Shown here piece by piece: positions 15,444 to 41,412 of a stretch of 47,246 bases of DNA. Location of the stretch: positions 1 to 47,246 of the forward strand of contig JAUIFC010000009.1 in assembly GCA_030429455.1 (NCBI GenBank), read 5' to 3'. Position 1 is the first letter of the stretch. Each line of letters begins with the position of its first letter. Source of the stretch: Bacteroidia bacterium (GTDB lineage Bacteria; Bacteroidota; Bacteroidia; Flavobacteriales; Flavobacteriaceae). The notes beneath the pieces are model-generated. The model ran no database searches and had not been told where the DNA came from. It saw nothing but the letters and a program-made list of their open reading frames with translations. The translations under genes were made by a program, and so were the position numbers.

Positions 15444-15715
15444 TATATTTTGAATTTGATAGGTTGTGAAATTAAGATTTAAAGATACAAATTATGCATT
15501 AGATAGCTGCTCTAGACGATTCAATTTACAAATCATACCACAAACTATTTCGGATTTTTATTCTCATAGTTTTCAATTACAGGTTTAATATTTTCACTTT
15601 CTGAAAAGTTCCGCTGTAAAAGCATGTGTCTCATTCTTTCAGTGTAATACCACTATAAATTGAGTTGCGTTTTGGCTAATTTGGCTATCCGTTTACCTAA
15701 ATATCTTTCTCACAT

Positions 15716-20720: not shown

Positions 20721-22001
20721 CTACAATTTTGGTTCAACGAATATTTTTTCTTCCTTTAAAAATTCAACTTTTATGGCTGAAAATAAATCTTTGAGTTCTA
20801 GGTTATTTCGTTTTTGATCAGCAAGATGAAGACAGCAATATTCTATTATATTATTAATTTGAGCACCAGTAAGTTCAAATTTTTCAGCGATGAGGACTAA
20901 TTCGGATTTACTTGCATTTATGTTTTTTGGTATCGCCATTTCCCATAGTTGTAATCGTTCTTGCCTGTTTGGTTTTGTAAAAGTGATAATTGCATTAAAA
21001 CGTCTGATAAATGCTTGGTCGATATTGTTTTTGTAATTGCTAGCCAAAATGACTAAACCATTAAAATATTCAATGCGTTGCAACAAGAAACTCACACTCT
21101 GATTCGCATAACGATCCTGAGCATTTCGTGTATTGGAGCGTTTTCCAAAAAGCGCATCGGCCTCATCAAAGAAGAGTATCCAGTTTTTATTTTCGGCTCG
21201 TATAAATACTTTTTCTAAGTTTTTTTCAGTCTCACCAATATATTTCGAAATGATCTGAGACAGGTCTATTCGATATACAGGGCGACCAAACTCTTTACCT
21301 AGTAGTGAAGCAGTCAATGTTTTTCCCGTTCCTGAAGGGCCATAAAACAAGGCTTTGTAACCTGGAGGCATGCGTTTTGCCATTCCCCAATCTTTGCGTA
21401 AAACATCTTTGTGCTTTATCCATAAACGAATGTGATTAATCTGATTTAATGTATTGGCGTTTAATACCAAATCTTTCCATTCCATTGCCGTATGTATGAG
21501 TTTTGCTGGAAAATCTGGTCCAAATCTTGGTTTAAGTGCTTCGCCATACAAGAGTTGATGAATACTTTCTTTTGGAATAATCAATTTGCCACTCATGAAC
21601 GGCATGCCCTCTTTTACAGGTTCTATAAACAAAATTTGATCAGTAAAAAACCAATGGTCTTCTTTAAAATAATCAAGCAATTTTAAACGCTTTTGCATGT
21701 CCTTACCTGCCAGAATATATTGGATGGTTTCACCCGTAGGCTGCATGCTTCGGTAGGTATCGTTTTTAAGCCCACCCCATTCAGGGAACTCTCCGCCTTC
21801 TGGATAAAGCTCTTTTAAAATGTTGTCATAAAAACCTGTAATGACGTGTGGTGCTAAAGTCATTAACAGAATAATCCCTTCCTCATGAGAAGTTTCTCTA
21901 CCTAGGACTTCCGAAAAAGTATTTTGAAAAGTATATTCCTTTACCTCTTTATTAGTGTTAAATTGGTGTAGGATATATTCTTTGAGATTTTGGAAAGGCA
22001 T
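20721..22001 (-). CDS. eCIS AAA+ ATPase (Afp15-like)
   Basis: A predicted 426-aa AAA+ ATPase; every AFP/PVC-type contractile injection system locus carries one, and it is thought to help assemble or load the particle. Residue numbers refer to the ATG at 22001. The longer frame to 22034 depends on a TTG and adds 11 residues. Walker A is GPSGTGKT at 221-228, Walker B FFDEADALFGKR has D279 and E280, sensor-1 is VILASNYKNNID, and arginine fingers lie in the FIRRFNAIITF motif. The N-terminal domain (about 200 aa) is family-specific. It is the last gene of the operon, downstream of the cargo gene. Confidence 0.92.
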   Translation of the reverse strand: MPFQNLKEYILHQFNTNKEVKEYTFQNTFSEVLGRETSHEEGIILLMTLAPHVITGFYDNILKELYPEGGEFPEWGGLKNDTYRSMQPTGETIQYILAGKDMQKRLKLLDYFKEDHWFFTDQILFIEPVKEGMPFMSGKLIIPKESIHQLLYGEALKPRFGPDFPAKLIHTAMEWKDLVLNANTLNQINHIRLWIKHKDVLRKDWGMAKRMPPGYKALFYGPSGTGKTLTASLLGKEFGRPVYRIDLSQIISKYIGETEKNLEKVFIRAENKNWILFFDEADALFGKRSNTRNAQDRYANQSVSFLLQRIEYFNGLVILASNYKNNIDQAFIRRFNAIITFTKPNRQERLQLWEMAIPKNINASKSELVLIAEKFELTGAQINNIIEYCCLHLADQKRNNLELKDLFSAIKVEFLKEEKIFVEPKL

Positions 22002-22041
22002 GGTACTAAATCGTAAATTAAATTCATAAAACAAAACTATC

Positions 22042-23763
22042 TTACACTTTTACTTTCACATCACCTAATTCTTTAAATGCTATTGATGCAATTTTATATT
22101 TACTAGTTTTTAAAGTGTAGAAATTTCGATATCTACCTGCATTCAACTGCAAATAACTAGGTGCAATTTGGTGTGCAAGGCTTACAAACCCTCCAGAAGT
22201 ATCACTTAACCAGATATAATTTTTTTCATCTCTTGAAAACTTGACACGCTCTTGAGTCCGTTTCTCATACCACGAAACATCGTAACCTACATCGAAAGTA
22301 CATCTAATAGGAATTTTGAGATTTTTAATTTTCGTTTTGCTAATTTCAGGCTTTAAATGTTGGTTTATCCCGTCAATTTTAGCAGAATTGATTGTTGGTT
22401 TTGCATTATGCCATTCCCCAAAAACTTGCAAAACACCCAAATTATCCCAGATATGAGTATCTTTCATATTCACAGTTCCATCTTTAGTGGTACCATAGTC
22501 TGACTTTGCTAAAAAGACAGACCAATTTTGTACCGTTTTATTTCTTTGTTTTCTTCTCGCTTTACTGAAAAAACTAGGATTAAGTGTAGATTGAATAGCT
22601 AGAATTGCCTCAAGGCCTTCTTTACCTTTACTTTTCAATGTACTTTTTCTCTTTCTTAATTCTTTTCCTTGTTCGCCCATATTATTGATAAGATTCTGAA
22701 CTTGAGAATTAATAAATATTTCCCCTGATCTTTTTTTATTTTGAACTGGATGAGAATTTTCTGCTGCAGCAAATGAAATTTTCATTCCATTTGTTAATTT
22801 ATTTATACCTGCCTTTGTAACATCATTTACAATATCACCACTTAATCTTTCAATCACGCTAATTGTACTATTCTTTAAAATATTACTAGTAGATAGTTTT
22901 TTTGTAATGAGTTTCCCTGCCTGAACTGCAACAACACTACCGATACCTGCTGTCGCACCAACGAGTGCTAGTTCTGCTCCCGCCATTAGTAATTTTTGCC
23001 ACATCTTTGGTGGATCAGCCTCCCCAATTTGTTTATACATTATTTGCAGTTCCAGTTTTTGAGATTCAAAAATTTTATCATAATCCTTGACAGTATTATC
23101 TATTGCAGTATCAATTTCATCATTATAGTCTTTTTTATTTTCTTGTTTTTGAATTTTGAATTGTTCACTTTGCTGCAAAGTATGCGTCAACTCATGCGCC
23201 AATAAATGCTTACCCGAATTGCTATGAGGATTGTATTTTCCTTCATTAAAATAAATGTCATTGCCAACAGTAAAAGCCTGTGCATTTAAGTCCCTGTTCA
23301 TCTGAGCAGCCTGAGCATCGGTATGGATTCTTACACCCGCAAAGCTGGCTCCAAATCGACTCTCCATAAAACTCTGTGTATTTTTATCCATAGTTTGACC
23401 AGTTCCTCTCCTTGAATCAATCTGTTGAGTCAAGGCTTGTGACGCTGAGCCAGCTTCAGACGCATTTCCTTTAGACTGAATTAATGGTGTAATTTGAGAA
23501 GCCATCGATTTTGTTTGAACCATCTCTTCTTCACAATCGGTGCACTTACGCTGTACTAAAGGCCCTGTTTGTACTTTAGTCTTTACCTGAGAATCACTCA
23601 TACCTAATACCTTATCAGCCATGGCATCGGCTTCTCGTTCGTAAGCATCATCAGGTGAGCCAATAGTCAATTTACGTTGAATGACATGTTTCCCTATAAA
23701 TTGACTATTTCTCTTTTTCTGAGTTTGTTTTGCAGTTGAATTTTGCTGAACTATTGCTTCCAT
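22042..23763 (-). CDS. eCIS cargo candidate: DUF4157 protein with unassigned C-terminus
   Basis: A 573-aa protein. The N-terminal 200 residues form the DUF4157 module associated with cargo of extracellular contractile injection systems: GSPDDAYEREADAMADKV (residues 35-52), a CxxC pair (C74 and C77), FGASFAGVRIHTD (137-149) and the zinc-peptidase-like HELTH at 190-194. After a linker rich in Lys and Asp, residues 258-285 form a Gly/Ala-rich hydrophobic helix (LLMAGAELALVGATAGIGSV). The remaining 290 residues match no family I know and end in a β-rich segment. It sits between the tape measure and the ATPase, the usual cargo position. Toxic function is inferred from context, not shown. Confidence 0.8.
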   Translation of the reverse strand: MEAIVQQNSTAKQTQKKRNSQFIGKHVIQRKLTIGSPDDAYEREADAMADKVLGMSDSQVKTKVQTGPLVQRKCTDCEEEMVQTKSMASQITPLIQSKGNASEAGSASQALTQQIDSRRGTGQTMDKNTQSFMESRFGASFAGVRIHTDAQAAQMNRDLNAQAFTVGNDIYFNEGKYNPHSNSGKHLLAHELTHTLQQSEQFKIQKQENKKDYNDEIDTAIDNTVKDYDKIFESQKLELQIMYKQIGEADPPKMWQKLLMAGAELALVGATAGIGSVVAVQAGKLITKKLSTSNILKNSTISVIERLSGDIVNDVTKAGINKLTNGMKISFAAAENSHPVQNKKRSGEIFINSQVQNLINNMGEQGKELRKRKSTLKSKGKEGLEAILAIQSTLNPSFFSKARRKQRNKTVQNWSVFLAKSDYGTTKDGTVNMKDTHIWDNLGVLQVFGEWHNAKPTINSAKIDGINQHLKPEISKTKIKNLKIPIRCTFDVGYDVSWYEKRTQERVKFSRDEKNYIWLSDTSGGFVSLAHQIAPSYLQLNAGRYRNFYTLKTSKYKIASIAFKELGDVKVKV

Positions 23764-23773
23764 CGTAAATATT

Positions 23774-25225
23774 TTAAGCCCACTGACATGTTAAATAATT
23801 ATCCATCCATGGGGTTTTTACCATTCCGATTCCCCAAGGTAAATGATCCAGTAATACATCTATGCTTTGTTTTTCAACTATAATGTCGTATTTGTTTTTC
23901 TCATGTTCAATTAGTTTTGCATTGCGTTGTAAAAAGCTTTCTTGTAAAGTTTTCACCGAAGTGTTTTTAAGTATGGCCCAATGAGAAATGACAGATTCTA
24001 ATAATTCTTGGCATTGTTCCTTTTCTGCGTTTGTAATTTCCCAATCGGTTTTGACCGTGTCAGAAAAGTTGATTCCACAGAGTAGCTTATTTAATAGAAG
24101 TTCTGTTTCATAGGTTTTGGTTTCGCCGTAAACAAGATAATGTAAAAGTAATACCGCTCGATGTCTAAAAGAATCCTGTTTCCATTCATTGCCATTTAGG
24201 TAATTCAGTTTTTTAAATAGGGGAACGATAAAGGGATTAAGAATAACTAAACCTGCATTTTCGACGTATACATAAGTTTGAGTACTCTTTTGTTTACCAC
24301 TATTATTTCCCTGAAGAGCGTCTAAAATGGCGTCAATTTCATCCTGTGAGGTGGTTTTGTTTTCGTTGTTCACCGTTGTTTCTGTGGTAAAAGCTAATTT
24401 TATTAACTGGTCGAATTCGGCTGATAAAGCACCAAAACGCTTTTGTTGCTCTTCTAGTTTCCAAAACTTAGCTAAACGCAATACTTCTTCTTTTGAGAGG
24501 TTAAAATATGATTGTGCAACCTTCAAAGTGTTTTTAGCAGCATCAATTGAGTTTAGATTTGAATATTTACGCTTAACATGGGCAATCCAGAAAAGATAGA
24601 TTACAAATTGCCTAGACGGTTTGGGTTGTTTCTTCAACAAAAGTTCTAATTCATTTAAATCTTTACTAATTCCTAATGTGCTTGAAAAATCAGTAATTAA
24701 CTCATCAGGAAGATTTAGTATCATTCGTAAGGCAAATGTCTTTAATAGCTCAAAATCATCCTTTATTTTTTCAAATAATAAATTTAAAAAACTATCGTCA
24801 ATAGTTACTGTATTAAAGATTTGATTCAAATCGGTGGTAATGGCATTGGGAGGTAATTTCCCTTGAGTCAAATACTCTAGCAATAAGTGTTGGTATGCTT
24901 TTTCTTTGGAGAGAACTTGGTAATTGGGATGGTCGTTTTTGGGTTGACTATGCTTTGGTTGATTTGATTTCAAAAAAGCTTCAACCTGTGTTAATGTAGA
25001 ATTTACAACATCGTTTTTCCAGTTGGATAAGGTCAAGTTAGGTATTGAAACTTGCAATTTATCTATTTTCCAAACACCATCAGGCACATCATATCGATTG
25101 AGTAAAGCATCTAATTTTGAATATAAGTTATGCTTGAAGACATCTCCTATTTCGTCTTGTAATAGTTTAGCGGTTTCTTGCGTTGAACAGGCGATGTCGA
25201 TATGGTGTTTTTCTAACAGATGCAT
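23774..25225 (-). CDS. CIS tape-measure protein (Afp14-like)
   Basis: A predicted 483-aa protein with the N-terminal signature of contractile-injection-system tape measure proteins: MHLLEKHHIDIACSTQETAK, then a helix with QDEIGDVFKHNLYSKLDALLNRY and VWKIDKLQVSIPNL. Helix-rich middle sections and a conserved C-terminal block (YVENAGLVILNPFIVPLFKKL, then FRHRAVLLLHYLVYGE and PLCG-like LLNKLLCGINF) complete the family pattern. Tape measures set particle length, and at a helical rise of 1.5 Å per residue the upper limit would be about 72 nm. I chose the ATG at 25225; a TTG three codons upstream is less likely. It is preceded by the 195-aa gene and followed 10 bp later by the cargo candidate. Confidence 0.88.
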   Translation of the reverse strand: MHLLEKHHIDIACSTQETAKLLQDEIGDVFKHNLYSKLDALLNRYDVPDGVWKIDKLQVSIPNLTLSNWKNDVVNSTLTQVEAFLKSNQPKHSQPKNDHPNYQVLSKEKAYQHLLLEYLTQGKLPPNAITTDLNQIFNTVTIDDSFLNLLFEKIKDDFELLKTFALRMILNLPDELITDFSSTLGISKDLNELELLLKKQPKPSRQFVIYLFWIAHVKRKYSNLNSIDAAKNTLKVAQSYFNLSKEEVLRLAKFWKLEEQQKRFGALSAEFDQLIKLAFTTETTVNNENKTTSQDEIDAILDALQGNNSGKQKSTQTYVYVENAGLVILNPFIVPLFKKLNYLNGNEWKQDSFRHRAVLLLHYLVYGETKTYETELLLNKLLCGINFSDTVKTDWEITNAEKEQCQELLESVISHWAILKNTSVKTLQESFLQRNAKLIEHEKNKYDIIVEKQSIDVLLDHLPWGIGMVKTPWMDNYLTCQWA

Positions 25226-25242
25226 TAAAATCAAAGGGGAAT

Positions 25243-25830
25243 TTATATCGATTCGTCTATAATGTTTTGACTAGAATGGAAACAAACTGAGGTATAAGCC
25301 AAAGCATCTGTCAACGGGTAATCTGCAGTATTTTGTTGTCCAGGAACATAAAAATCCATATCAAACTGTACTGCAGGTGCATTATTACTCATAAAAAATG
25401 AAATAGTAGTTGGAATTGTAAATGGGAGTGCGTTATCCAAATTAGCAAATCTAATCTTAAAAGGTATACTAAACTGCATTTTAGTAGTTGTCAGAATAGT
25501 ATTCATTGTACTTAACAATTTATCTCCATGGTCATTTTGTAAGTTGAAGATAAAAACGTTGTTATTAGAGTTGTCAGAAATTTTCAATTGAAATGTAAAA
25601 TTGGCAAATTGATTTCTTATTCCTCTGCATGAATATTGCAACGTAGATCCTGTATTGTTGGTAATAGATGAATTTGTTTTATAATCAAAAAGGTTTAACT
25701 TACCATTATCAGGCTTATTTTCAGTGTAATCCATCAGTGCTGTTAAGACTTCACGTACTTCTGCAGCGGTATTGTTTCCGTTGTCTTCTATGGCAGCTAT
25801 TGCTTTTTCTACTTTGGCTCTTGTTGACAT
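25243..25830 (-). CDS. Unknown 195-aa protein with fibre-like N-terminus in the eCIS locus
   Basis: I do not recognise this protein as a whole. Residues 5-37 (VEKAIAAIEDNGNNTAAEVREVLTALMDY) form a helix pair whose DN..TA.EVR.VL pattern recalls the N-terminal segment of many tail-fibre or appendage proteins in Bacteroidota phages. The remaining 150 residues are rich in Asn, Thr and Phe with alternating hydrophobics (FTFQLKISDNSNNNVFIFNL; FTIPTTISFFMSNNAPAVQFDMDF), suggesting a β-sandwich. It has only one cysteine (after SVCF) besides one near residue 67. The location between the 856-aa protein and the tape measure suggests a receptor-binding or baseplate-attached appendage, which is inference only. 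Confidence 0.6.
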   Translation of the reverse strand: MSTRAKVEKAIAAIEDNGNNTAAEVREVLTALMDYTENKPDNGKLNLFDYKTNSSITNNTGSTLQYSCRGIRNQFANFTFQLKISDNSNNNVFIFNLQNDHGDKLLSTMNTILTTTKMQFSIPFKIRFANLDNALPFTIPTTISFFMSNNAPAVQFDMDFYVPGQQNTADYPLTDALAYTSVCFHSSQNIIDESI

Positions 25831-25848
25831 AATATGGTGTTTTATAAT

Positions 25849-28419
25849 TTATTGTTCATCTGTAAAAAAGTCATTATTGTTAAAATCGTTACTGTCAAAA
25901 TCTGCAACAATTGGTTCGGGTTCGACGCTGTTATTTTCAATTACAATATTTATGCTCTGTCCATCTGAGCAGCATATATAAGGCAAATAGAAGTCTGCAA
26001 TAATAATTTTTTGGTCTGCATTATCATTTATGGGTTTCCTTCTTGGCGTTCTAAACATATTGTCTGTGATATTCGAGTTAAAATAACTGGCAATCGATGG
26101 GTTGAGGTTATTAAACATGTAACTTGACATATTCTCTTTATAGTCCGATAGTGCCGAATCTATACTTTTAGAACAGTCGTCTTTGTCGCCAATTTTAGTT
26201 ACATTGAGCAGGTATGGATTGTTTGTTTTACGCTTGCGGAGTACATTTTTATTTTTAATTCTTTCGATTAACACATTGGAAAATTGGAATTTTTTCATGT
26301 GTTCTTTTGCAAACTCGAAAAATAAAGGCAACTTAAAAATTGGTGAAGTTTTTGTTTGAAAAATAGAATAATCGCTGTAAACCATAACAAAAGTTCCGCC
26401 TTTAGCCACACCTGCCACATGCTCCAATCCCGGATGATTTTTTGCAAATTCTGATAAAAATGTTGACTTTACACCTCTAATCCATCTGTTGATGGCTTCT
26501 TGGTATATTAGGGTAAAAGCGTCTTCTAAAATAATGGCATTAAAATCGTCCAATCGATTTTCTATTTCCTGAAGTACAGCCGAATTATTATTACGCTGAA
26601 CTAAATCGATACAAGCATTATGTAAAAGGAAAAGATCATTTAAATCCTCCAAGGCATCATAAAACGTTTGGTAGTTTTCCAAAAATTCGGTTAAGTCTTC
26701 AGTGAGTAATGTATTAAATTCGGTTACCGTATTCTCTAGACTATTCAAAAAAGTATCATTAAACAATGGATAATCTTTTTCTACCTTGGATTTGTTCTTT
26801 TTTAACCAATCTACCATAAAGTTTAAGGTGTTGATCAGTTTGGTTTTGGCGAGGTCGTACTCGATTTCCAAATCATCCCAAGCATTCCTATCGTTGTTAA
26901 AAATAATCGTGCGACCGGTATCGTCTACCGCATTGACGCCAACAACTTTAAATGGCAACCTGTAATCTTCTTGCAAGGCTGTTACCTCGGTTAAAGTTTT
27001 CGTATACTCTCGGCCAATATGTCCTTCAATTCTAAAAAAATCATAGTCCTGAATGTCATATTCCAAGGGTTGTGTTACATGCAAAGCTGAGGGATTGTAC
27101 TCCTCAGCATGGTAACTCAAAATGTGTTTGTGTTGGTTTTTCGCCGTAAGTTGAGGAGACCATTTAGCGTTTAGTGCTGTTATATCAGAATAGTACATGG
27201 GAATTGCTTTGTCTGATAATGGAACTTTTCCTAAGTAAGATGGCGTTATTTTGATGCCTTTTTTGGCGACAACTTCAACATTTAAATCAAATGTTCCTAT
27301 CTGTCTGATGAGTTTCTCCAAAAGGCCTTTCAACATATTTTTTGATTCTAAATCTTCTGAAGCAACAACACCAGTTTTGATAAAAGGGCTTCTAAATTTT
27401 AATAAACTGCTGTTTTCTAATATATCTTGTGTCGCAACTTCGGTCGAACCCAAAAGAATGTGGAATGGAAATTCACTCTTGTTAGGGCAACAAAGGCTTG
27501 GATTACAAAGATGAAATTCTGCAATCTCGTTGTATGTTTCGACCAAATCCGACATCCAGTCCCAAACATATTGAAGGTAATTGCCATTTTTATTTTGGTT
27601 GTATACTGATAGAATTCGACCCGAAACCTGATTTAATCTCATATAGTTATCCAAACTTCCAAAGGCATCTCCATAATGATTGTATATATTATTGAAGCTG
27701 GCATTAATCAAAGGAATAGATTTTTCGATTAACCGTTTGTAGGACGAAAAGATATCGGCTACAATTTTCAAATCTTTTTTAGGCACATTATACCTTGGTA
27801 GCACGAGTGCATCAAGATAGATGGTTTCGCAATGATTCAAACTAAACTCTGATTCAAAAAGTAACTCTTTATCCACCAAAAGGGGTCTTACTTTAAAATC
27901 TAATCGCTTGCCTTTGTCATCGCAATCCAAGGCAACACAATTTTTAACATCGACAAGAACAGTTTCAACCAAAAGCATGACTACTTTATTCTCCAATATG
28001 GCAGCAGTAAGAGGTTGTTTGCCATCGTCCTCGGAATTAGAGGCCAGTAGTTCCATCGAATTTTCAAACACTTGGTACCTATTGGCGTATTGATACATTT
28101 CTTCTAAATAATTCAAATCATCGTTGATCGAAGGTGTTAAAAAATTCTCTGATAGATTTACGGTTTTAAAGTGTGTAAAGGTTTGAGCCTCAAAGGGAAT
28201 AAGATAGCCTAAAGACGTTACGCCAACGCCACAGTTGATATGTATGCTTGTATTTGAGGGTTTGGAAATTTCCATTCCGCATACCAACCCCATGCCTAAT
28301 AACTGAAGTCTGGAAAGACGATCCTGCTCTTCTAAATAGCTAATAAATTTATTTAAGTGCTTTTGACTTAATACTTGATCGGCTTCAAAAATGGGATAGC
28401 TGTTATTGAGTAATGTCAT
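25849..28419 (-). CDS. Unknown 856-aa eCIS-locus protein, possible baseplate periphery or fibre component
   Basis: An 856-aa protein without a recognised domain. The first 90 residues are distinctive: FEADQVLSQKHLNKFISYL, then EEQDRLSRLQLLGMGLVCGMEI, and INCGVGVTSLGYLIPFEA, which resembles the small β-domain at the start of phage baseplate-peripheral or fibre proteins. A CNPSLCCPNKSE cluster lies near residue 309-321. A long helical, Asp- and Asn-rich middle (about 540-680) may form coiled coils, and the last 60 residues are acidic and low in complexity. The ATG overlaps the stop of the preceding wedge gene (ATGA), so it is translated in step with the baseplate. Similar proteins appear in Bacteroidota eCIS loci, but no function is known to me. 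Confidence 0.6.
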   Translation of the reverse strand: MTLLNNSYPIFEADQVLSQKHLNKFISYLEEQDRLSRLQLLGMGLVCGMEISKPSNTSIHINCGVGVTSLGYLIPFEAQTFTHFKTVNLSENFLTPSINDDLNYLEEMYQYANRYQVFENSMELLASNSEDDGKQPLTAAILENKVVMLLVETVLVDVKNCVALDCDDKGKRLDFKVRPLLVDKELLFESEFSLNHCETIYLDALVLPRYNVPKKDLKIVADIFSSYKRLIEKSIPLINASFNNIYNHYGDAFGSLDNYMRLNQVSGRILSVYNQNKNGNYLQYVWDWMSDLVETYNEIAEFHLCNPSLCCPNKSEFPFHILLGSTEVATQDILENSSLLKFRSPFIKTGVVASEDLESKNMLKGLLEKLIRQIGTFDLNVEVVAKKGIKITPSYLGKVPLSDKAIPMYYSDITALNAKWSPQLTAKNQHKHILSYHAEEYNPSALHVTQPLEYDIQDYDFFRIEGHIGREYTKTLTEVTALQEDYRLPFKVVGVNAVDDTGRTIIFNNDRNAWDDLEIEYDLAKTKLINTLNFMVDWLKKNKSKVEKDYPLFNDTFLNSLENTVTEFNTLLTEDLTEFLENYQTFYDALEDLNDLFLLHNACIDLVQRNNNSAVLQEIENRLDDFNAIILEDAFTLIYQEAINRWIRGVKSTFLSEFAKNHPGLEHVAGVAKGGTFVMVYSDYSIFQTKTSPIFKLPLFFEFAKEHMKKFQFSNVLIERIKNKNVLRKRKTNNPYLLNVTKIGDKDDCSKSIDSALSDYKENMSSYMFNNLNPSIASYFNSNITDNMFRTPRRKPINDNADQKIIIADFYLPYICCSDGQSINIVIENNSVEPEPIVADFDSNDFNNNDFFTDEQ

Positions 28420-34400: not shown

Positions 34401-34591
34401 TTGCCAGTAACAATATTATTGTTGTCAAAAAAATTAATCTGCTTGGACAGTGCATTCGTGCTTTCAATAAGATCCTTAATTGTGCGTTCGTCAAGATGAA
34501 TTGAGTCTGGCGAAAGCGCATTAAGCATTCTGTTGGATTGATTGCTTCCAGTTTTTTTATGTGTCGCTATGTCTGTTTCGCAATTGGTCAT
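31445..34591 (-). CDS. eCIS baseplate wedge protein (Afp11/gpJ-like)
   Basis: A 1048-aa protein. A helical N-terminal region (about 1-240) carries KHSPQYALYLAFLKLFGYAQENLNQFTKRHLDFYYNKILHL, conserved in Afp11-type wedges. A β-rich middle follows. The C-terminal third holds the J-domain signature FYQRTSERLRHKGRAISIWDYEKLVLDHFPEVHQVKCLNH, which marks baseplate J-like proteins and precedes a strand-rich cap. The length is normal for Bacteroidota members. It is encoded 8 bp after the gp25-like gene and overlaps the Afp12-like gene by 4 bp, as expected for partners made in equal amounts. Confidence 0.88.
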   Translation of the reverse strand: MTNCETDIATHKKTGSNQSNRMLNALSPDSIHLDERTIKDLIESTNALSKQINFFDNNNIVTGKWDSFFQWETTSILAQIAQLDITALSQEFQLKKRELLFIENLEEQKEVVLPFFHNMTSIVDNLLEKIGQLPNDFEVKSYFKNTQNGLSRVLEAIKRELSASTDLLFTLQHHLFNKKVQNVFGLLHQWKRRCEKQIQINLESYPKHSPQYALYLAFLKLFGYAQENLNQFTKRHLDFYYNKILHLYPEKATPDSVHLCIEPHKNRSSFLIEKGSVFLAGKDSQGRNKYYESTADVAINQAKVEHIYGSSVKDNTYYFQELSHLNATGEQWNAFPNESVYNQIGFALASPMLYLRGGHRVIKLTFNDSADDIIHIPPEDYEFYLTAQDGWYKANADFEAGIITLTIPSEEKGIIPFNAEIHKGVALNTTFPVLKILSKSGNIAYNPPFQKIKISVSVTNYKHFKLYNNTGEIDHTKSFEPFGSIPKNGNTLIFACKEFFQKNIFSGKFIIKMDLADDNINLRTLSDFEILKNGTWTDTIILREDTFVPLLNPTSSFDFTDDEPLTPEDTNGFMKFTLNSSAYDKNTFLNNFITASKAKGSTALPYVPNILDISFEYTTPFSVFTVSNTASSSSSKLFQIYPKGYSTFKADRMQILPSYTNEGELFIGVKDIKDGNALNLLFQVADGTANPRQEAIDLNWKYLHGKEWRDFENNNIHDATNGLTQSGIVTLNSPFDLKLNEQTEWPSDCWWIKIQASTRIDAVCKLIGIHNQALKANLVDYESQGTDFIEHTEEGAISKLKSANPHIKKINQPYRSFSGKAKEDQNRFYQRTSERLRHKGRAISIWDYEKLVLDHFPEVHQVKCLNHYRYDSLEINNSSAGYVTLIPVAKTKISNQPLVGLDTMKRIKSFISSRTSPHVRLAVKAPKLEKLKLRFNVKYVEVPGADLNLYDQQLQNTINAFLSPWAYNENANVNFQKQLNKSTLIHLIEQQSFVDYLSDFKVDHFILEESSDQIAQTMSDIDNIVPKSVYSLFIPDTHDILPITSCCS

Positions 34592-34599
34592 ATTGCAAG

Positions 34600-35013
34600 T
34601 TAAGTTTTGATATATGTTCCTTCTTTAATATAAAATGGATGCACATAGTTGAACCTTGAATTTGTTGTTCTTATTTTGTATTGAAGTTGAATATGTATCA
34701 CTCCTTCTTCGGCTTTTGGACTGGTAAAGAAAATGTGTTCAAGGTCAATTCTCGGCTCATAGAGTAGAATCGCTTTTTTGATAATGCTCTTTAATTTGGT
34801 TAAAAAAGTAACTGTAATATTTTCAAATGGTAGCACATTTATTCCGCAGCCGTATTCGGACAAGAGCACGCGTTCACCTAAGCGTGTTGACATCAAAATA
34901 TGAAGACTTTGTCTGATGTCTTCTTCGTCACTTACCGTTTCCACCGTTCTTTTATGTGGATTGAATGTTGGCGGAAAACTCCAGCCAGTTCCTAAAAAAT
35001 TGTCTTTACTCAT
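34600..35013 (-). CDS. eCIS gp25-like baseplate wedge protein
   Basis: A 137-aa member of the GPW/gp25 family (Afp9-like). Markers are the N-terminal LGTGWSFPPTFN and the conserved helix EEDIRQSLHILMSTRLGERVLLSEYGCGINVLPFE, which contains the LxxxxGERxxxxxYG core, followed by the strands LEHIFFTSPKAEEGVIHIQLQYKIR. In phages and CIS particles this small protein joins the wedge to the sheath and initiates contraction. It is transcribed 11 bp after the PAAR gene and 8 bp before the Afp11-like gene. Confidence 0.93.
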   Translation of the reverse strand: MSKDNFLGTGWSFPPTFNPHKRTVETVSDEEDIRQSLHILMSTRLGERVLLSEYGCGINVLPFENITVTFLTKLKSIIKKAILLYEPRIDLEHIFFTSPKAEEGVIHIQLQYKIRTTNSRFNYVHPFYIKEGTYIKT

Positions 35014-35024
35014 CCTTTAATTTT

Positions 35025-35315
35025 TTAACCTCCAATTAATACCGTTGGACAACCCATGATGATACTTCCTCCATGCGCGGTGGAATCTCCCATTCTTGCT
35101 GCTGGACTTCCAGAAATCAACACACTAGAAGAACCTTTGATAATCGTATCCGTTGGTCCAACACAAACACAAGAATCGCCTACAACAGCTGCAGGCAATC
35201 CACCAATCAACACTGTCGAATTTGCACCTGGTAAAATTGGGCCACCAACATGAGGTTTTGGCCCATCGGACATTGGACATACATGCATATCGCTTACTCT
35301 TGCGGCATTTGGCAT
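35025..35315 (-). CDS. PAAR spike-tip protein
   Basis: A predicted 96-aa PAAR-repeat protein. The pattern is regular: PNAARVSDMHVCPMSDG, GGPILPGANSTVLIGGLPAAVVGDSC, GSSSVLISGSPAARMGDSTAHGG and a final GCPTVLIGG. Repeats of V-L-I-x-G-x-P-A-A and His/Cys positions that bind one zinc ion are typical. It forms the sharp tip on the VgrG-like spike. The start ATG at 35315 is preferred; the longer frame to 35321 begins with TTG and overlaps the VgrG-like stop. No effector domain is fused, so the cargo is separate. Confidence 0.93.
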   Translation of the reverse strand: MPNAARVSDMHVCPMSDGPKPHVGGPILPGANSTVLIGGLPAAVVGDSCVCVGPTDTIIKGSSSVLISGSPAARMGDSTAHGGSIIMGCPTVLIGG

Positions 35316-35317
35316 AA

Positions 35318-36982
35318 TCAATTAAGTTTTATAAGTGAGCCAGAAAGTTCTACTATTCCACCCGCTTTTATGTTAATCATCTGGCCTTCTATGTTTATAC
35401 TTCCTTGGCCATTTAAATTTATATCTCTCGTACTGTCTAAAGTTATCCCATCTGTATTCATGGTTATTTTATTGCTGTTTTCGTCTTCCAACACCAATCC
35501 TTTTTCTGTATCGCTTATCAAAAGCTTGTTTCCGTTTTGTGTGCTAATCTCCACAGTTTTGTCCTCGTCGTTGATAATTATTTTTGTCTGCTCTTTGGAT
35601 ACAATGCCTTGAATCTTATTATCCGCCTCTATCGGATATGGCATTGTGTTGGCACTGCTAAATAGTTTTCCTAAAATAACAGGAGTATCTGGATTATTAT
35701 TTATACAACCTAGTATAACCTCATCGCCAACTTCTGGGATAAAAAAAGCACCTCTGTCATTTCCAGCTTGAAAAGAAGACAATCTTGCCCAAACACCTTC
35801 AGCATCATCAGAAATTGAAGGAATTTTTACTTTTACTCTAAATTCGTTTTCAGGGTCATCTTCCAATTGTGTTACGACTCCTATTTGAAGTCCTTGCATG
35901 CTATTGGTTTGTCCCGTTAAGGATGCATTGCTAGGAATGCTCGTGTTAATGTTTTCGGCAAAAGATTTCGAGTTTTCTAAACCAAAAGAATATTCTGTTT
36001 CCCAATTTCCATTTTCTATGTGATGGTATTCGGAAGAGATCAGAAAGGCATCGCCATCAATTTGGGAGTTGATATTTTTAAATTCTAAATAATCTCCGCA
36101 TTTTGCTTTTAAATTACCAAAGGTTTTTACTTTGCCTTTAATTGAAGACAGCCTGTGTTTTGATGCTCTTGCTTTTGCTATTTGAGCAATGGTATCTGCC
36201 TTATAAGACGATTGACTCATGTCCAAAACCTCCTTACCACTGGCATGATGAGCTCCTGATGAACTTTCTTGACTTTCAATAGATTGTGATTCTGGATTCC
36301 AATAACGCACTTCTACATCTGCAACACATTCTTCCTTTTTAAGTTGAAACTCCTGTACGTTTGCTCCATTTTGTGCCAAATATTGCGATTCTTCAGGATC
36401 GTCTGTTATGTTTACTGTTTTGAAACTGCTTTCTCGAATTCTAGTCATCATCCCAAGACTATCAAGGTAACTCAGTAAATAATCCCATGGAGATAGTTGC
36501 TGTATTTTACTAATCGTTTCTTCGCCAAAAGCATCCAGTTGAACTTCATTGATCATTTGAATATCATTAAGAAATCGATCCATTTTTTCTGCGAATGTTT
36601 CGTCTGCATTTATTTCCTGTTGCCCCGTAAGTTTTACTGCAACATCTTTACATTCAATTTTTGTGACAAAACCATCTGTTCCTTCAGCGCTTTTTTCTAT
36701 ACGATAGACAATACCTTTAAACAGTGTTTCTGTACTTTCGCCCGTAAATATTTTTACTTCTATGTCGTCCGACAATTGTAAGTTATCACTTTGTAATGCA
36801 TTATCCTCTTGGTCTATTTGAGGATTTGAGGATATAAAAAAAAGTTTAGCTGTAGGGATTTTGTTTAGCTCATAATTGACATGTAGTTTTTTTAAAAGTG
36901 AATGCGTTCCATCATTATTACCATTGATGAGAATTTCAACTTCTACAATGTTATATTCTGGTATGTAAGGCGTGTCTGGCAT
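35318..36982 (-). CDS. eCIS VgrG-like central spike protein (Afp8-like)
   Basis: A 554-aa spike protein. The N-terminal 350 residues resemble the gp27-like hub domain (KLHVNYELNKIPTAKLFFI; GIVYRIEKSAEGTDGFVTKIECKDVAVKL; ISSEYHHIENGNWETEYSFGLE). The OB-fold starts near 370 with IGVVTQLEDDPENEFRVKVKIPSISDDAEGVWARL and continues with FIPEVGDEVILGCINNNPDTPVILGKLF, both diagnostic for VgrG/gp5 needles. The C-terminal β-helix is made of short repeats (KIIINDEDKTVEISTQNGN; SINIEGQMINIKAGGIVELSG). No extra toxin domain is fused at the end. Encoded 2 bp after the LysM protein. Confidence 0.93.
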   Translation of the reverse strand: MPDTPYIPEYNIVEVEILINGNNDGTHSLLKKLHVNYELNKIPTAKLFFISSNPQIDQEDNALQSDNLQLSDDIEVKIFTGESTETLFKGIVYRIEKSAEGTDGFVTKIECKDVAVKLTGQQEINADETFAEKMDRFLNDIQMINEVQLDAFGEETISKIQQLSPWDYLLSYLDSLGMMTRIRESSFKTVNITDDPEESQYLAQNGANVQEFQLKKEECVADVEVRYWNPESQSIESQESSSGAHHASGKEVLDMSQSSYKADTIAQIAKARASKHRLSSIKGKVKTFGNLKAKCGDYLEFKNINSQIDGDAFLISSEYHHIENGNWETEYSFGLENSKSFAENINTSIPSNASLTGQTNSMQGLQIGVVTQLEDDPENEFRVKVKIPSISDDAEGVWARLSSFQAGNDRGAFFIPEVGDEVILGCINNNPDTPVILGKLFSSANTMPYPIEADNKIQGIVSKEQTKIIINDEDKTVEISTQNGNKLLISDTEKGLVLEDENSNKITMNTDGITLDSTRDINLNGQGSINIEGQMINIKAGGIVELSGSLIKLN

Positions 36983-36984
36983 AC

Positions 36985-37752
36985 TTATTTAATTGGAGGA
37001 AAAAAAAGTTTTTGACCTGTTTTTAGTTTTCTAAAACTCAACAAATTGTTTGCCTTCGCAACATCGATGTAATATTTGTTTTGACTATAGGTCTTTTCCG
37101 CCATCAATGTAAAACTATCTTGTTGATTTACTGTTTTTACGTGTGTAACATCTGGGGATTGCTGATTTTGTTCAGCTTGCATTTCCGTTTGGGATTGCGT
37201 ACTCCTAAATTTGCAGGTAGCTTTTGCTCTAATGGGTCTTCCATCTCTTCTAAAAACACTGTATTGCACTTGCATACTTACAAGTCTGCATTTTAAGTCA
37301 AATTCGCCCCAAAGCAAATGAAGATAACGCGTTTGGTGTATGTCGCCACTGTAACCTAACAGCAAATTTTTAAACTGGCTTAATTCCTCTTCGATGGTAT
37401 CTGCTTCTTCAAAAGGATTGGTAATCGCTGGTTTAAGAACGTCTACCACGCTGTCTAACAATGGTAATTTTTCTACTTTACCTGTTTCGATTTTTGCTGG
37501 TGGCAAAACACCCGAACTGTCGAAAAGAAAGTCGAACGATACTTCCTGTCCAGCAATGCGATTGAATTTTAGATTTTGATTCGAAGCCCCCATTGCTTGA
37601 CTGTCACTAAACTGTACTTCGTGGTTGATTGTATAAGTATCTGGATTTACCTGAACAAAAATTGTACTGATGGCTTCATTTTCATTATAGTTATCGTTGG
37701 GATAAACCTCAATACGCATCTTATCAATTATTCCTAAAGCGCCTGCTATCAT
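36985..37752 (-). CDS. eCIS LysM-containing baseplate hub protein (Afp7-like)
   Basis: A 255-aa protein. The N-terminal domain contains the segment VQVNPDTYTINHEVQFSDSQAMGASNQNLKFNRIAGQEVSFDFLFD found in Afp7-type proteins. Residues 155-180 hold YLHLLWGEFDLKCRLVSMQVQYSVFRRDGRPIRAKATCKF, typical of the tube-to-hub adapter (gp53-like). The C-terminal 45 residues form a LysM motif (TYSQNKYYIDVAKANNLLSFRKLKTGQKLFFP) that could bind peptidoglycan or serve as a structural module. Its ATG overlaps the stop of the 57-aa gene (ATGA), so the two are translationally coupled. Confidence 0.9.
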   Translation of the reverse strand: MIAGALGIIDKMRIEVYPNDNYNENEAISTIFVQVNPDTYTINHEVQFSDSQAMGASNQNLKFNRIAGQEVSFDFLFDSSGVLPPAKIETGKVEKLPLLDSVVDVLKPAITNPFEEADTIEEELSQFKNLLLGYSGDIHQTRYLHLLWGEFDLKCRLVSMQVQYSVFRRDGRPIRAKATCKFRSTQSQTEMQAEQNQQSPDVTHVKTVNQQDSFTLMAEKTYSQNKYYIDVAKANNLLSFRKLKTGQKLFFPPIK

Positions 37753-37922
37753 CGTTCTTGATATTCTTTAAGTTTTTCTAATACTTCTCTAGTACACTTT
37801 TTTACAATTTCGGTTTTAAACTGCTCTAAATCTTGCTCTCTTTTTGGAACTTTCAATTCTGGTTTTATTGGTGTTTCATCTACAACAACCTTTACCACTA
37901 ACTCTTTAATTTCAATTGCCAT
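37749..37922 (-). CDS. DUF5908-family small eCIS protein
   Basis: A 57-aa protein, easy to miss. It starts at ATG 37922 as MAIEIKELVVKVVVDE, continues TPIKPELKVPKREQDLEQFK, and ends in a basic helix (CTREVLEKLKEYQER) before TGA at 37749-37751. The (P/A)IEIKELVVKVVV opening is the signature of the DUF5908 family, small proteins found at this position in Bacteroidota contractile-injection loci. Role unknown; perhaps a baseplate or assembly adaptor. It lies 10 bp after the second tube gene and overlaps the LysM gene in the sequence ATGA. A purely length-based gene caller could skip it. Confidence 0.85.
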   Translation of the reverse strand: MAIEIKELVVKVVVDETPIKPELKVPKREQDLEQFKTEIVKKCTREVLEKLKEYQER

Positions 37923-37932
37923 GACATCTTGT

Positions 37933-38385
37933 TTATGGAATAGGTAATTCTTTAAAATATTGATATTTTAATGTAAATGTTTCTATGACCAATTTGTTTT
38001 CTTCAGCATTAAATTCTGAGGTTTCAAAGGAAATTGGTATCGCTTGAGACACATACCAAACTTTCATTGGATTGTGATTTTCGTTAAGCAGAGAAATAAC
38101 CAAGTTTGCGGGATGATATACAAAATCATTAAGTGCTTTGGTAATCCACATTTTCAGTCCAGACAGTTCGTTCGTGAGGCCACGCGTTAATACCAAGTTG
38201 TCATAAGTGGCTCGTTTAGGTAGCGTAATCTTATATTGATTTTGTCCACCTTCGGAAATAGTTTCAGTTTCCATTGTTGCTTTTAGACCTGTAACACTTT
38301 GAAATTTAGTATCTATACTAAACTGTGGTAAAAGCTCAAAAACAACAGAGAAATGAAATCCACTTAATGGCATAGTACCCGACAT
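37933..38385 (-). CDS. eCIS tube protein 2 (Afp5-like, baseplate-proximal)
   Basis: A 150-aa Hcp-fold tail tube protein. It begins PLSGFHFSVVFELLP, contains the T4 gp19-type segment GQNQYKITLPKRATYDNLVLTRG, and has the ISLLNENH-like motif (VISLLNENHNPMKVWYVSQA) shared with the other tube gene. The second tube copy next to the LysM hub suggests the ring that adapts tube to spike, as Afp5 does. It differs from tube 1 in the surface loop (METETISEGGQNQYK), as expected for an adapter. The start lies 3 bp downstream of the first tube gene. Confidence 0.88.
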   Translation of the reverse strand: MSGTMPLSGFHFSVVFELLPQFSIDTKFQSVTGLKATMETETISEGGQNQYKITLPKRATYDNLVLTRGLTNELSGLKMWITKALNDFVYHPANLVISLLNENHNPMKVWYVSQAIPISFETSEFNAEENKLVIETFTLKYQYFKELPIP

Positions 38386-38388
38386 ACT

Positions 38389-38823
38389 TTAGACGTGTTC
38401 CATGGTAAATCCATGATTAGCAATTTCTACAGTGTCGATGGCGTTTGCATTTTCATCTGCTTTCAAATCGGTACACTTTAAAGAAACTATAAAACAGTCT
38501 TTCACTTTCCAAACCACAGAGGGTTCATGATTTTCATTTAGAAGCGAAATGGTAATGTCTCGTTTTTCAACCGTGTTCATTGCTACGGTGTTGTACCATT
38601 CATAAAATTCGTTATCGTTATGAAAAACACCGCGCTTAAGGGTAATATTACTCAGTTTATGCATTCCTGGCATTTTTCGTTTGAAATATTCGGGACTTGC
38701 ACCATCTCTATATTCTAAGATTTCTAATTCTTTATTTAGTCCAGATACTTCAGAAAAGCCTATTCGTGTGCCACCCCAGTCTACACTAAAATGGAATTTT
38801 GGTAATGGAAAACTTGCTGCCAT
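38389..38823 (-). CDS. eCIS main tube protein (Afp1-like)
   Basis: A 144-aa tail tube protein that should polymerise into the inner tube. Key segments: FPLPKFHFSVDWGGTRIGFSEVSGLNKELEILEYRDG (first β-hairpin), FKRKMPGMHKLSNITLKRGVFHNDNEFYEWYN and the conserved ISLLNENHEPSVVWKVKDCFIV. All are standard for the T4 gp19/Hcp-fold family of phage and CIS tubes. It is the gene after the sheath, and the spacing (15 bp) and order (sheath, tube, tube) match known loci. The main tube is normally the most abundant subunit together with the sheath. Confidence 0.92.
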   Translation of the reverse strand: MAASFPLPKFHFSVDWGGTRIGFSEVSGLNKELEILEYRDGASPEYFKRKMPGMHKLSNITLKRGVFHNDNEFYEWYNTVAMNTVEKRDITISLLNENHEPSVVWKVKDCFIVSLKCTDLKADENANAIDTVEIANHGFTMEHV

Positions 38824-38838
38824 AATCTACTATTTTTA

Positions 38839-40743
38839 TTATGATTTTTGTTGAGTTTGAATAAATTCAAGAATGATAAATTCTGCTGGTCGCGAAGGTG
38901 CATATCCAATTTTGACAATCAATCTACCTTCGTTGATGTCTTGAGCAGACATGGTTTGGTTCAGGCCTACACTTACAAAGAAAGCATCTTCTGGTTTAGC
39001 TCCAGCTAAAGCACCATCTCTCCATAAGGTCGTCAGGTAATTTTCTATCATGCCTTTGACATTGACCCATGTTTGTTTCACATTAGGTTCGAAAACAAAG
39101 TTCATACAAGCTTTTTTTGATGACTCTTGAATCATATTTGCTAATCGACGCACATTTATGTAACGCCAATCGTTGCTATTGCCGTCCAAAGTTCTTGCAC
39201 CCCAAACTAATAGACCTCTGCCAGAAAATTTGCGAATAGCATTGATAGATTTTCCTGATTCGTGAATGTTCATGTTCTCTTGTTCCTTGGAGGTAATATC
39301 GTCGGTAAGACCAATGATGCCATTTATACTCACATTTGCAGGTGCTTTCCAAACACCTCTGGACCCATCCACATTGGCATATATTCCTGCTATGGCTCCA
39401 CTTGGCGGCACAGTATTCATACTACTGTTTAAACCTGCAATAAGGCTTGGATAAATAGGTAATTGAGACACCAAATCGTTTTCTTTCTTTAGACTATATT
39501 CTTCAATTGCAGACACTACAGAGTTAACGGTATTTACTATTTGAGTATGCAATTTGTTAAGGTGTGCTTCTGCTTTTGGGTAGCTGACTTCGTTGTCACC
39601 AGAATCAGGGTTTGCACTTATTTTTTTGGCATATTGATTTCCAGCGCTTGTAACTGCAAAGTCGGCCACACCACCTTTCCAACTGGCATTGTTAAAGCTG
39701 TTGTCCATGGCGCCATCAAGTACATTTGTATACGTGGTATCTGTAAAACCGTCTATCTGTGCTTCAAAATCAAAGAGTTTTTGAGCCAGAGGTTTTAAGG
39801 CATTGCTTACCATTCCTGCTACAAAGTCTTGTAATTTATAGGATACATGATTACTAAGCGTTGTAGGATTTTTAAATAGACCAAGTAAATTCCAGCATTT
39901 TGTAACGTATGCATTTACCTTTGCTTCGTCATTTACAGGAGAAGCTGGTTTTGTTTTATCTGTTTTTAGAGGATCCGAAGTCCAAGAGGTCTCCAAAGCT
40001 GAATACTCAGCATGCATGGTTTCATACCCAGATATGGCATCAATCAGGTTAGGATACTTGGCCTTAAAGTCAATGTTATTCCCTTGAATATCCATAAAAC
40101 GAAAGGCATAGGTAAAACTTGATTGTAAATAGGGATAATAAGATGCGCCATATTTTAGGTTTTGATTGCCAACAGCATCTCTAAAATCTTCAGAATCTTG
40201 TTCTAATCCGTTCGCCGTTTTTTGCACAACATCCATAATGCAAAACCTGTCCATGAGTTCTGCGCATTGCATGAGCGCATGGCTCTGTACTAAGCCCAAA
40301 TTCGTAGCTTCGAGGTTAACGCCATCGGGAAATAACAAAAGTGTGACTTCATCCACTTTTTCCAATAAATCTAAACCATCATTAAAAGGATCGGCAGAAG
40401 CAAACGGTGTTGCAGAATCGTAATCTCCTATTGAGACAATGTAGCACTCGCCACCGCCATTGGCAAAAAACAAGCGTAAGCTATTGTACATTTTAAATTT
40501 ACTTTCGGTAACATCGAACGTAAAGTTGCCTCCAGATTCGTTGATCGAAATCGACGCAGGTTTTGGAGCACCTCCAAAGAAGTTTTCATATTCTAGTAGC
40601 GAAGTCACCTTGGTAGGCTCTGAAGGTCCTTTCTCTGTGTAGCCAACAAAGCCAGGAATGGCTGTTGCAACTTGAGCAATACTCGGAGGAAACCCATTTA
40701 TTTCATGGATGTACACTCCAGGTGTTTTAATTGAACTTATCAT
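38839..40743 (-). CDS. eCIS contractile sheath protein
   Basis: A 634-aa sheath subunit. The N-terminal arm TPGVYIHEINGFPPSIAQVATAIPGFVGYTEKGP and the C-terminal fold GRGLLVWGARTLDGNSNDWRYINVRRL, followed by EPNVKQTWVNVKGMIENYL and a terminal strand ending in ILEFIQTQ, are the conserved interlocking parts of contractile sheaths. Between residues 85 and 470 is a large, less conserved insertion that should project from the particle surface and could carry host- or environment-specific features. Only one sheath gene is present, unlike the three of AFP-type loci from Serratia. It is the second gene of the operon, 12 bp after the tail terminator. Confidence 0.95.
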   Translation of the reverse strand: MISSIKTPGVYIHEINGFPPSIAQVATAIPGFVGYTEKGPSEPTKVTSLLEYENFFGGAPKPASISINESGGNFTFDVTESKFKMYNSLRLFFANGGGECYIVSIGDYDSATPFASADPFNDGLDLLEKVDEVTLLLFPDGVNLEATNLGLVQSHALMQCAELMDRFCIMDVVQKTANGLEQDSEDFRDAVGNQNLKYGASYYPYLQSSFTYAFRFMDIQGNNIDFKAKYPNLIDAISGYETMHAEYSALETSWTSDPLKTDKTKPASPVNDEAKVNAYVTKCWNLLGLFKNPTTLSNHVSYKLQDFVAGMVSNALKPLAQKLFDFEAQIDGFTDTTYTNVLDGAMDNSFNNASWKGGVADFAVTSAGNQYAKKISANPDSGDNEVSYPKAEAHLNKLHTQIVNTVNSVVSAIEEYSLKKENDLVSQLPIYPSLIAGLNSSMNTVPPSGAIAGIYANVDGSRGVWKAPANVSINGIIGLTDDITSKEQENMNIHESGKSINAIRKFSGRGLLVWGARTLDGNSNDWRYINVRRLANMIQESSKKACMNFVFEPNVKQTWVNVKGMIENYLTTLWRDGALAGAKPEDAFFVSVGLNQTMSAQDINEGRLIVKIGYAPSRPAEFIILEFIQTQQKS

Positions 40744-40755
40744 ATCGTTTAGGTT

Positions 40756-41412
40756 TTATGTATTTAAAATAATGTCGTCACTCTCTTCAATAAGCCCAGC
40801 ACTATCGTCGGGATCGTTATTCCAAAGTTTTAGTTTTACTTTTTCAATCACTTCTCCACCATCTTCTAACTGATGTTGAATGGTTATCATTCGCATTTTA
40901 TAAAGTACAGAAGGCATATATTTATTGCCTAGCATGGACCATAATTGATTAAGCTCGCTTATCGATAAGTTTTCCATGTCTAGAATAAGTTTTGTATGAT
41001 TCGTTGTACTGGGGTCGACTTCGGTTGTTCCATTGATATAAAAGACATGTTGCTCTTGAAAACAACGAATAACATGCTCTAACTTTGTAATGCCAGCTTG
41101 GTACTTTTCAGTTTTTTGTTCCTGATTATAAGAAGAGAACAGTAATGATAATACCAAATTCTTCGCTGGATTTTTATATTTACTAATTGAAGAAGACGGA
41201 TTACTATTTGCAACATAAACATTTGGTGTTCTGGAAATGATATCTTCTTGAATATTTACAACAGAAAGGGTTATGGGTGTGGATGAAGGCAAAAACTGAT
41301 CTCCATCGTTAAGTGTTGCGATATTGTATAATTCCACAATAGAACCAACATTAGCATTGTAATCATCAATTTTGGACTTTAAGAATTGTAATGCCTGATT
41401 TATAACATCCAC
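40756..41412 (-). CDS. eCIS tail terminator/cap protein (DUF4255, Afp16-like)
   Basis: A 218-aa protein of the DUF4255 (Pvc16 N-terminal) family, which caps the end of the sheath and tube far from the baseplate. It starts with a GTG codon (41412-41410), the only start available before an in-frame stop upstream. Motifs: VINQALQFLKSKIDDYNAN at the N-terminus, ITLSVVNIQEDIISRTPNVYV in the middle, and MENLSISELNQLWSMLGNKYMPSVLYKMRMITIQ near the end, all typical. It is the first gene of the operon, so transcription should begin just upstream. Confidence 0.9.
   Translation of the reverse strand: MDVINQALQFLKSKIDDYNANVGSIVELYNIATLNDGDQFLPSSTPITLSVVNIQEDIISRTPNVYVANSNPSSSISKYKNPAKNLVLSLLFSSYNQEQKTEKYQAGITKLEHVIRCFQEQHVFYINGTTEVDPSTTNHTKLILDMENLSISELNQLWSMLGNKYMPSVLYKMRMITIQHQLEDGGEVIEKVKLKLWNNDPDDSAGLIEESDDIILNT

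Follow-up and report, generated by a model that had tools for sequence, protein, structure and literature searches.

A contractile injection locus in a Flavobacteriaceae genome with a short tail fibre and a putative separate tip protein

The described extracellular contractile injection systems (eCIS) closest to the locus reported here are AlgoCIS of Algoriphagus machipongonensis (PMC8894135, PMC13314943) and tCIS of Anabaena (PDB 7b5h, 7b5i), the latter thylakoid-anchored according to its published title, while AFP of Serratia and PVC of Photorhabdus belong to the same superfamily. The locus lies on the minus strand at 20721-41412 of contig JAUIFC010000009.1, a stretch of 47,246 nucleotides (the window) from assembly GCA_030429455.1 of a Bacteroidia bacterium in the family Flavobacteriaceae. 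Our analysis points, with a probability of roughly 70%, to a single particle of the AlgoCIS/tCIS branch in which a 195-residue protein is a separate fibre tip that recognises the target and in which the cap adaptor is absent. What is new is a split fibre whose tip stands alone and changes fast, together with the lack of a cap adaptor; the role of the tip is what we infer.

A catalogue of eCIS fibres from 2026 identifies fibres by their N-terminal anchor domains, assigns the tCIS crown to eBAP4, portrays eBAP4 fibres as bulky shafts that continue in flexible chains carrying Ig, lectin and PKD modules, and reports more than one fibre gene in 23.4% of its loci (PMC12923769). AFP and PVC differ from the window system in having several sheath paralogues (PMC8894135) instead of a single sheath, and in having a fibre with another anchor domain (eBAP1) that combines shaft and knob in one protein, Afp13 being described with an adenovirus-like shaft and knob (PMC12923769). 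No account of a separate eCIS tip gene, or of an adaptor-less eCIS of this branch, was found in the literature searched, from which supplements and most subscription papers were excluded. Because the catalogue was built on baseplate-anchor domains and a stand-alone tip carries none, such a tip would be missed by it.

A DF-tailed fibre and the small gene behind it

The initial annotation of this DNA named particle parts that are indeed present, but it omitted the tail fibre encoded at 25849-28419 (minus strand) and left 25243-25830 unassigned. The 856-residue fibre matched no Pfam family above the cut-off and was identified as a short tail fibre or anchor of the Alg19 (eBAP4) type by sequence comparison with the PDB (9wt0_a, E 7.1e-58; 7b5h_AA, E 1.5e-46). 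Its residues 4-506, 650-682 and 795-828 matched Alg19 residues 8-495, 766-798 and 876-909, the last of these stretches weakly (14.7 bits), and its residues 4-184 matched residues 7-183 of the tCIS crown, indicating an Alg19/crown-type shoulder. The chain terminates 28 residues beyond the last Alg19 match in the motif DFxxxDFxxxDFxT, a proposed docking peptide (25849-25905 with the stop codon), and no Ig-rich C-terminal continuation was found in it; AlgoCIS differs in a fibre of 1443 residues, the window fibre stopping short of the region beyond Alg19 residue 909, and tCIS in a crown chain of 1476 residues.

The 195-residue protein is encoded directly after the fibre (25243-25830, minus strand). 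Searched alone against Pfam, PHROGs, NCBIfam and the PDB, it matched no family above cut-off or at a convincing E-value, and an 11-row alignment likewise gave no convincing family in Pfam, PHROGs or the PDB. The PHROGs hits were at chance level, with one of the 11 members reaching a tail-fibre family at E 0.27. A weak PDB match to a tannase (E 0.06 to 0.14) was judged to be due to chance and disappeared with the 11-row profile.

Besides the window protein, three relatives were identified in 395 genomes of the order, each directly behind a fibre of the same type. When two peptide patterns were run against the GTDB species genomes (84,980 by description), 121 stretches matched, and at least ten of them, including those three, were confirmed as relatives; they belong to two Flavobacteriaceae metagenome-assembled genomes, three Chryseobacterium, Aureisphaera galaxeae, one Psychroserpens and three Flavobacterium. 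The order Alg12, fibre, small gene, tape measure and a DF-ended fibre were found in all ten, Alg12, fibre and tape measure being broken into pieces in one metagenome-assembled genome (L032). The arrangement recurs in one more genome (G177), whose small gene has diverged strongly and was recognised by position; since the tip profile found three of 395 Bacteroidota genomes and missed this one, counts based on the profile are lower limits. With the window there are thus 12 split loci, in which the fibres have 832-995 and the small proteins 179-238 residues. Each of the 12 has the DFxxxDFxxxDFxT tail and one copy of the small gene, directly after the fibre, and the small gene was found only beside this fibre type. 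The possibility of a phage- or plasmid-borne tip gene gained no support, as there was no match in 50,697 phage records or in plasmid records, and none of the 205 and 59 stretches of viral contigs that fitted the search patterns was confirmed.

Among 395 genomes of the phylum, a profile of the DF-tailed fibre matched Alg19-type fibres in 58, four of these being split. The stretch behind the fibre was retrieved for 20 of the other 54; in all 20 the next listed gene was the tape measure and no tip was detected, in a listing without unmatched open reading frames (ORFs) below 130 residues and with gaps between fibre and tape measure that reach about 320 nt; the DF motif was missing from the last 25 residues of all 20 fibres. 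In a tree of 41 fibre N-terminal parts, computed by a quick method and containing some long branches, a single branch (SH-aLRT 100) separated the 12 split rows from all others, L032 being represented by a 247-residue piece. Outside the count of 20, two Alg19-type fibres stand in tandem in one genome from the group that holds Chryseobacterium (G040; L023, L024), which also has three sheath genes and a repeated tube; the ORF behind these fibres (312 residues) matched none of the window genes.

These distributions bear on the possibility that the locus encodes an ordinary AlgoCIS-type eCIS whose fibre binds targets itself, the small gene being a lineage-specific accessory irrelevant to target recognition. 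All other parts do match AlgoCIS and tCIS one by one, and fibres of about 750-940 residues that have neither tip gene nor DF tail occur in other Bacteroidota (L051, L071, L092-L094, L104, L105), which speaks for this possibility. Short fibre length was consequently rejected as a mark of the clade; because fibres as short as the split ones lack the tip, what marks the clade is the DF tail together with the extra gene. Within a single clade these two occur together, neither having been lost in any of the 12 loci, and loci with wedges and fibres that share 81-90% identity differ in the distal part of the small protein, which has been replaced or has hyperdiverged (see below); both findings make an irrelevant accessory quite improbable.

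Conserved N-terminus and predicted head of the small protein

Conservation within the 195-residue protein is sharply divided. Its residues 1-40, a conserved two-helix stretch, showed a mean pairwise identity of 0.73 among nine or ten loci, compared with 0.66 for gp25, 0.58 for Alg12, 0.44-0.52 for the fibre and 0.39 for the tape measure in the same set, and residues 45-195, at 0.28, were the least conserved stretch compared. Residues 44-191 are predicted to form a head with an adenovirus/reovirus-like fold, at 3-12% identity in the listed structural alignments. The possible likeness to the adenovirus fibre knob and to the sigma1/sigmaC heads of reoviruses lies in this predicted fold; no sequence relationship was seen, and the anchor differs.

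The locus of Aureisphaera (L029) and a second split locus (L026) are 90% identical in Alg12, 81% in the fibre and 90% in tip residues 1-40, with 30% identity in the rest of the tip, and their DNA identity drops from about 0.8 to 0.5 within the tip gene. Because the wedge, the fibre and residues 1-40 stay similar while the rest does not, the tip head is, on this sequence comparison, either replaced or very fast diverged on a much more constant particle. A Chryseobacterium-like donor of the Aureisphaera head was suspected, a question that the head tree cannot decide, as a grouping of the marine heads was not rejected (approximately unbiased test, p 0.248 with five rows and 0.515 with four).

In many phages, small genes that follow tail-fibre genes encode fibre-assembly chaperones, and the small size of the protein and its position directly after the fibre gene in all 12 loci would also suit a chaperone that is not part of the finished particle. 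This is unlikely, since the conserved part is the N-terminus, the head is predicted to have the fold of receptor-binding heads, and no chaperone family was matched in Pfam, PHROGs or NCBIfam; moreover, conservation extends to the fibre's DF tail, which thus offers no variation that could account for the variable half of the small protein. The DUF4157 cargos of these loci likewise combine a conserved N-terminus with a variable rest, which raises the possibility that the 195-residue protein is a second, DUF4157-free tube cargo with its N-terminus as loading signal. The gene, however, sits between fibre and tape measure, whereas the DUF4157 cargos lie between tape measure and ATPase, and it is present in one copy in each of the 12 loci and only with the DF-tailed fibre, as against zero to five DUF4157 cargos, which makes a cargo role highly improbable.

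A separate fibre tip has a precedent in the T2- and S16-like phages, whose gp37/gp38 long tail fibre bears a small tip adhesin made as a separate protein from the gene that follows. It is the nearest functional parallel and would work alike, with a separate small tip on a conserved fibre; the window tip had no sequence match in the 50,697 phage records. For the Flavobacteriales clade as a whole, we lean, by a modest degree, towards a stand-alone, interchangeable knob of adenovirus/reovirus fold on a conserved DF-tailed anchor fibre, the knob alone being replaced when the target changes.

Cap region, gene order and relation to AlgoCIS and tCIS

In seven of seven non-split loci a gene of 336 to about 400 codons is located before the sheath gene, in six of them after the cap; the seven include L070, whose cap lies outside the fetched stretch, and L071, whose fibre has 927 residues. 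A profile of these genes matched the AlgoCIS cap adaptor 7adz_1A (E 2.7e-22) and tCIS All3326 (E 3.2e-32). No gene was found between cap and sheath in any of the 12 split loci, and the profile had no match in their 12 genomes, that of the window being 86% complete; the two genomes that did match in this search were sources of profile sequences. The window system therefore differs in this respect from both AlgoCIS, which has the adaptor Alg16B, and tCIS, and the initial list of core parts, although complete for the contractile apparatus, does not amount to every part known from this branch, as the operon has no adaptor gene. AlgoCIS particles that had lost the cap adaptor were misassembled and empty (PMC8894135). 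Absence of the adaptor was rejected as a mark of the split clade alone, because C. mucoviscidosis (L085) has a further cap-sheath pair, of a different kind, in which no gene intervenes either. Both C. mucoviscidosis and a Psychroserpens genome (L085, L086) have a second, weakly matching cap-like gene, and two injection systems may coexist in them.

All sixteen same-strand ORFs of the initial annotation are present. In order of transcription, the locus begins with the Alg16A-like cap (Pvc16_N/DUF4255; 40756-41412, GTG start; PF14065, E 2.9e-25), followed after 12 nt by a single sheath protein of 634 residues (38839-40743; PF17482, PF04984; AlgoCIS 7adz, E 4e-115; tCIS All3325, E 5.2e-115), the inner tube protein (38389-38823; PF06841, E 4.2e-43) and a second gp19-type tube protein that by position is an Alg5-like tube initiator (37933-38385; PF06841, E 2e-34). 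These are followed by a 57-residue Alg6-like plug (DUF5908; 37749-37922; PF19265, E 9.3e-15), an Alg7-like CIS_tube protein (36985-37752; PF19266, E 6.5e-44) with a LysM-like C-terminal stretch, whose LysM2_NFP match was weak (E 0.013, below its cut-off), a VgrG-like spike (35318-36982; PF04717, E 1.5e-23; TIGR01646 above its cut-off), the PAAR tip of the spike (35025-35315 from its ATG, the ORF opening at TTG 35321; PF05488, E 2.8e-27) and a gp25-like sheath initiator (34600-35013; PF04965, E 4.6e-21). The Alg11-like wedge (31445-34591; PF04865; 7aeb_G, E 5.5e-91; 7b5h_AH, E 3.7e-104) and the Alg12-like wedge (28416-31448, ATG start; 7b5h_AD, E 3.4e-135; 7aeb_A, E 2.2e-112) precede the fibre and the 195-residue protein, after which come the tape measure protein (23774-25225, ATG start; PF19268, E 3.2e-93), the DUF4157 (eCIS_core) cargo (22042-23763; PF13699, E 1.7e-32) and an AAA ATPase, Afp15-like by position (20721-22001, ATG start; PF00004, E 7.3e-29). 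The complete order was seen in four relatives and a partial order in the other seven.

The families matched above the Pfam cut-off were Pvc16_N, Phage_sheath_1 and _1C, gp19 (twice), DUF5908, CIS_tube, Phage_base_V, PAAR, gp25, Baseplate_J, CIS_TMP, eCIS_core and AAA, Baseplate_J narrowly (22.0 bits against 21.1). Of the two wedges that had been proposed, the first was recognised by Baseplate_J and the second only through its PDB match to Alg12 and All3315. The locus thus has the contractile sheath and gp19-type tube of an eCIS (PF17482, PF04984 and two PF06841 matches, with PDB matches), the baseplate set of gp25, two wedges, spike, PAAR, CIS_tube and plug, and the Pvc16_N cap, CIS_TMP, eCIS_core and AAA ATPase. 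The profile and PDB matches give good support to the earlier assignment, in which a Flavobacteriaceae-type genome encodes a contractile injection particle of the AFP/PVC superfamily, and by its gene content the locus is a new member of a well-known kind. In the whole genome, DUF4157 had its single match at this locus, and all gp19 matches fell within it (E <= 0.001).

No capsid, portal, terminase or lysis family was found in the 30 window proteins scanned with Pfam (a set that excludes, among others, 43761-44450, 44447-45457, 45662-46876 and three small ORFs), in agreement with the earlier reading, and a prophage or tailocin was rejected on the absence of head, portal and lysis families from these 30. 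Intergenic gaps range from -4 to 18 nt, except for 40 nt upstream of the ATPase, and the locus is probably one operon. When ATG starts are used, the ATGA overlaps previously described number three (plug/LysM tube, Alg11/Alg12 and Alg12/fibre), and the PAAR gene starts at ATG 35315, 2 nt past the spike stop codon. The sequence TTG-N22-TAAATTTG, located 38 nt upstream of the first start codon, may resemble a Bacteroidota promoter.

The sheath, both wedges and the fibre were nearest to AlgoCIS and tCIS in the PDB sequence comparison, tCIS being the best or second-best match for wedges, sheath and crown/fibre; SalCis came next for sheath and wedges, and AFP and PVC were more distant. Judged from these matches, the particle is closer to AlgoCIS and tCIS than to AFP and PVC. 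It resembles AlgoCIS in its single sheath, tube, plug, spike, PAAR, gp25, Alg12, DUF4157 cargo and Alg19-like fibre shoulder, and in an Alg11 of equal length with the cage-forming insertion. It differs in its separate tip gene and in having one DUF4157 cargo, where AlgoCIS has two. The Alg11-like wedge is full length (1048 residues, against 1050 in AlgoCIS), with most of the cage-forming region alignable: residues 402-1048 aligned with Alg11 356-1038 and residues 206-308 with 109-211, residues 309-401 being diverged and unaligned. The long Alg11-type insertion characteristic of AlgoCIS-like systems (subtype Ib) is thus present. No cysteine was seen in this wedge at the place of Alg11 Cys1000, which is half of a disulphide that AlgoCIS requires to fire on bacteria (PMC13314943); the AlgoCIS firing disulphide therefore cannot form in the same way.

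Cargo, neighbouring genes and proposed mode of action

DUF4157 proteins are lumen cargo in AlgoCIS (PMC8894135). The window cargo keeps the conserved N-terminal part and DUF4157, behind which a hydrophobic stretch was noted by eye. Its C-terminal 369 residues (205-573; 22042-23151) had no relative among 286 ORFs of related loci, some of which were included twice, or in plasmids, and the whole protein had no PDB match up to E 5. Split loci hold zero to five DUF4157 cargos each, as detected by phmmer, between tape measure and ATPase. L026 (12120-17877), L029 (12071-19946) and L027 (12899-18857) carry as many as five in an array with shared N-termini, some interspersed with small other genes, whereas the window has one. 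In Flavobacterium profundi (L034, 12212-15964) and in G177 (L065, 12478-15999), the cargo position is occupied by one gene of 1173-1250 residues with a lysine-rich N-terminus and no phmmer match to the window cargo.

Elsewhere in the window, a transposase gene (304-1902) lies near the contig end, and 13794-18985 encodes a Tricorn-type protease (best 32% in 24 same-genus genomes) and an MscS-type channel (best 52%, in another genus; one other same-genus genome was in the draw), so that these neighbours of the locus lack close relatives within the genus. The fibre was found in none of 26 same-genus genomes, and in size the window genome exceeds almost every other genome of its genus. Either a binning error or a region specific to the lineage might explain the contig. 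An esterase-like ORF at 43003-43596, whose match begins at position 95 of a 251-position Pfam profile, is possibly a truncated gene. By eye, 43761-45457 encodes a LytTR-type response regulator and a histidine kinase, a candidate regulator near the eCIS locus.

In the proposed mechanism, trimers of the 856-residue fibre would bind the baseplate through the Alg19-like shoulder, their C-terminal DF tails would hold a trimer of the 195-residue protein through its conserved helical N-terminus (residues 1-40), and the variable head would bind the target surface. The binding signal would then open the Alg11-type cage, upon which the sheath would contract and the tube deliver the DUF4157 cargo. With the tip as a gene of its own, the head could be replaced while the anchor is left untouched, and the particle would work without the cap adaptor that AlgoCIS needs.

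The initial annotation proposed a secreted or released particle, and homology suggests that release outside the cell may occur; nothing in the window indicates how particles would leave the cell. Some published eCIS cousins act inside the cell or at membranes, judging from titles. The particle might likewise remain unreleased and work inside the producer or at its membrane, as do tCIS and the Streptomyces CIS, which would be compatible with the split fibre. The thylakoid-anchored (by title) tCIS is among the closest solved relatives, and no lysis gene was found among the proteins scanned. An exposed variable head on the fibre nevertheless makes sense for external targets, the equally close AlgoCIS was found in culture supernatant (PMC8894135), and no membrane-anchor protein was recognised in the operon, so that retention by the producer seems unlikely.

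Few eCIS particles have a known target. If the 195-residue protein is the fibre tip, the target should be definable from the sequence of this small protein alone, the split loci would amount to a series in which nature has exchanged tips while the particles stayed nearly constant, and the system would offer a test of how a particle of this kind works without a cap adaptor.

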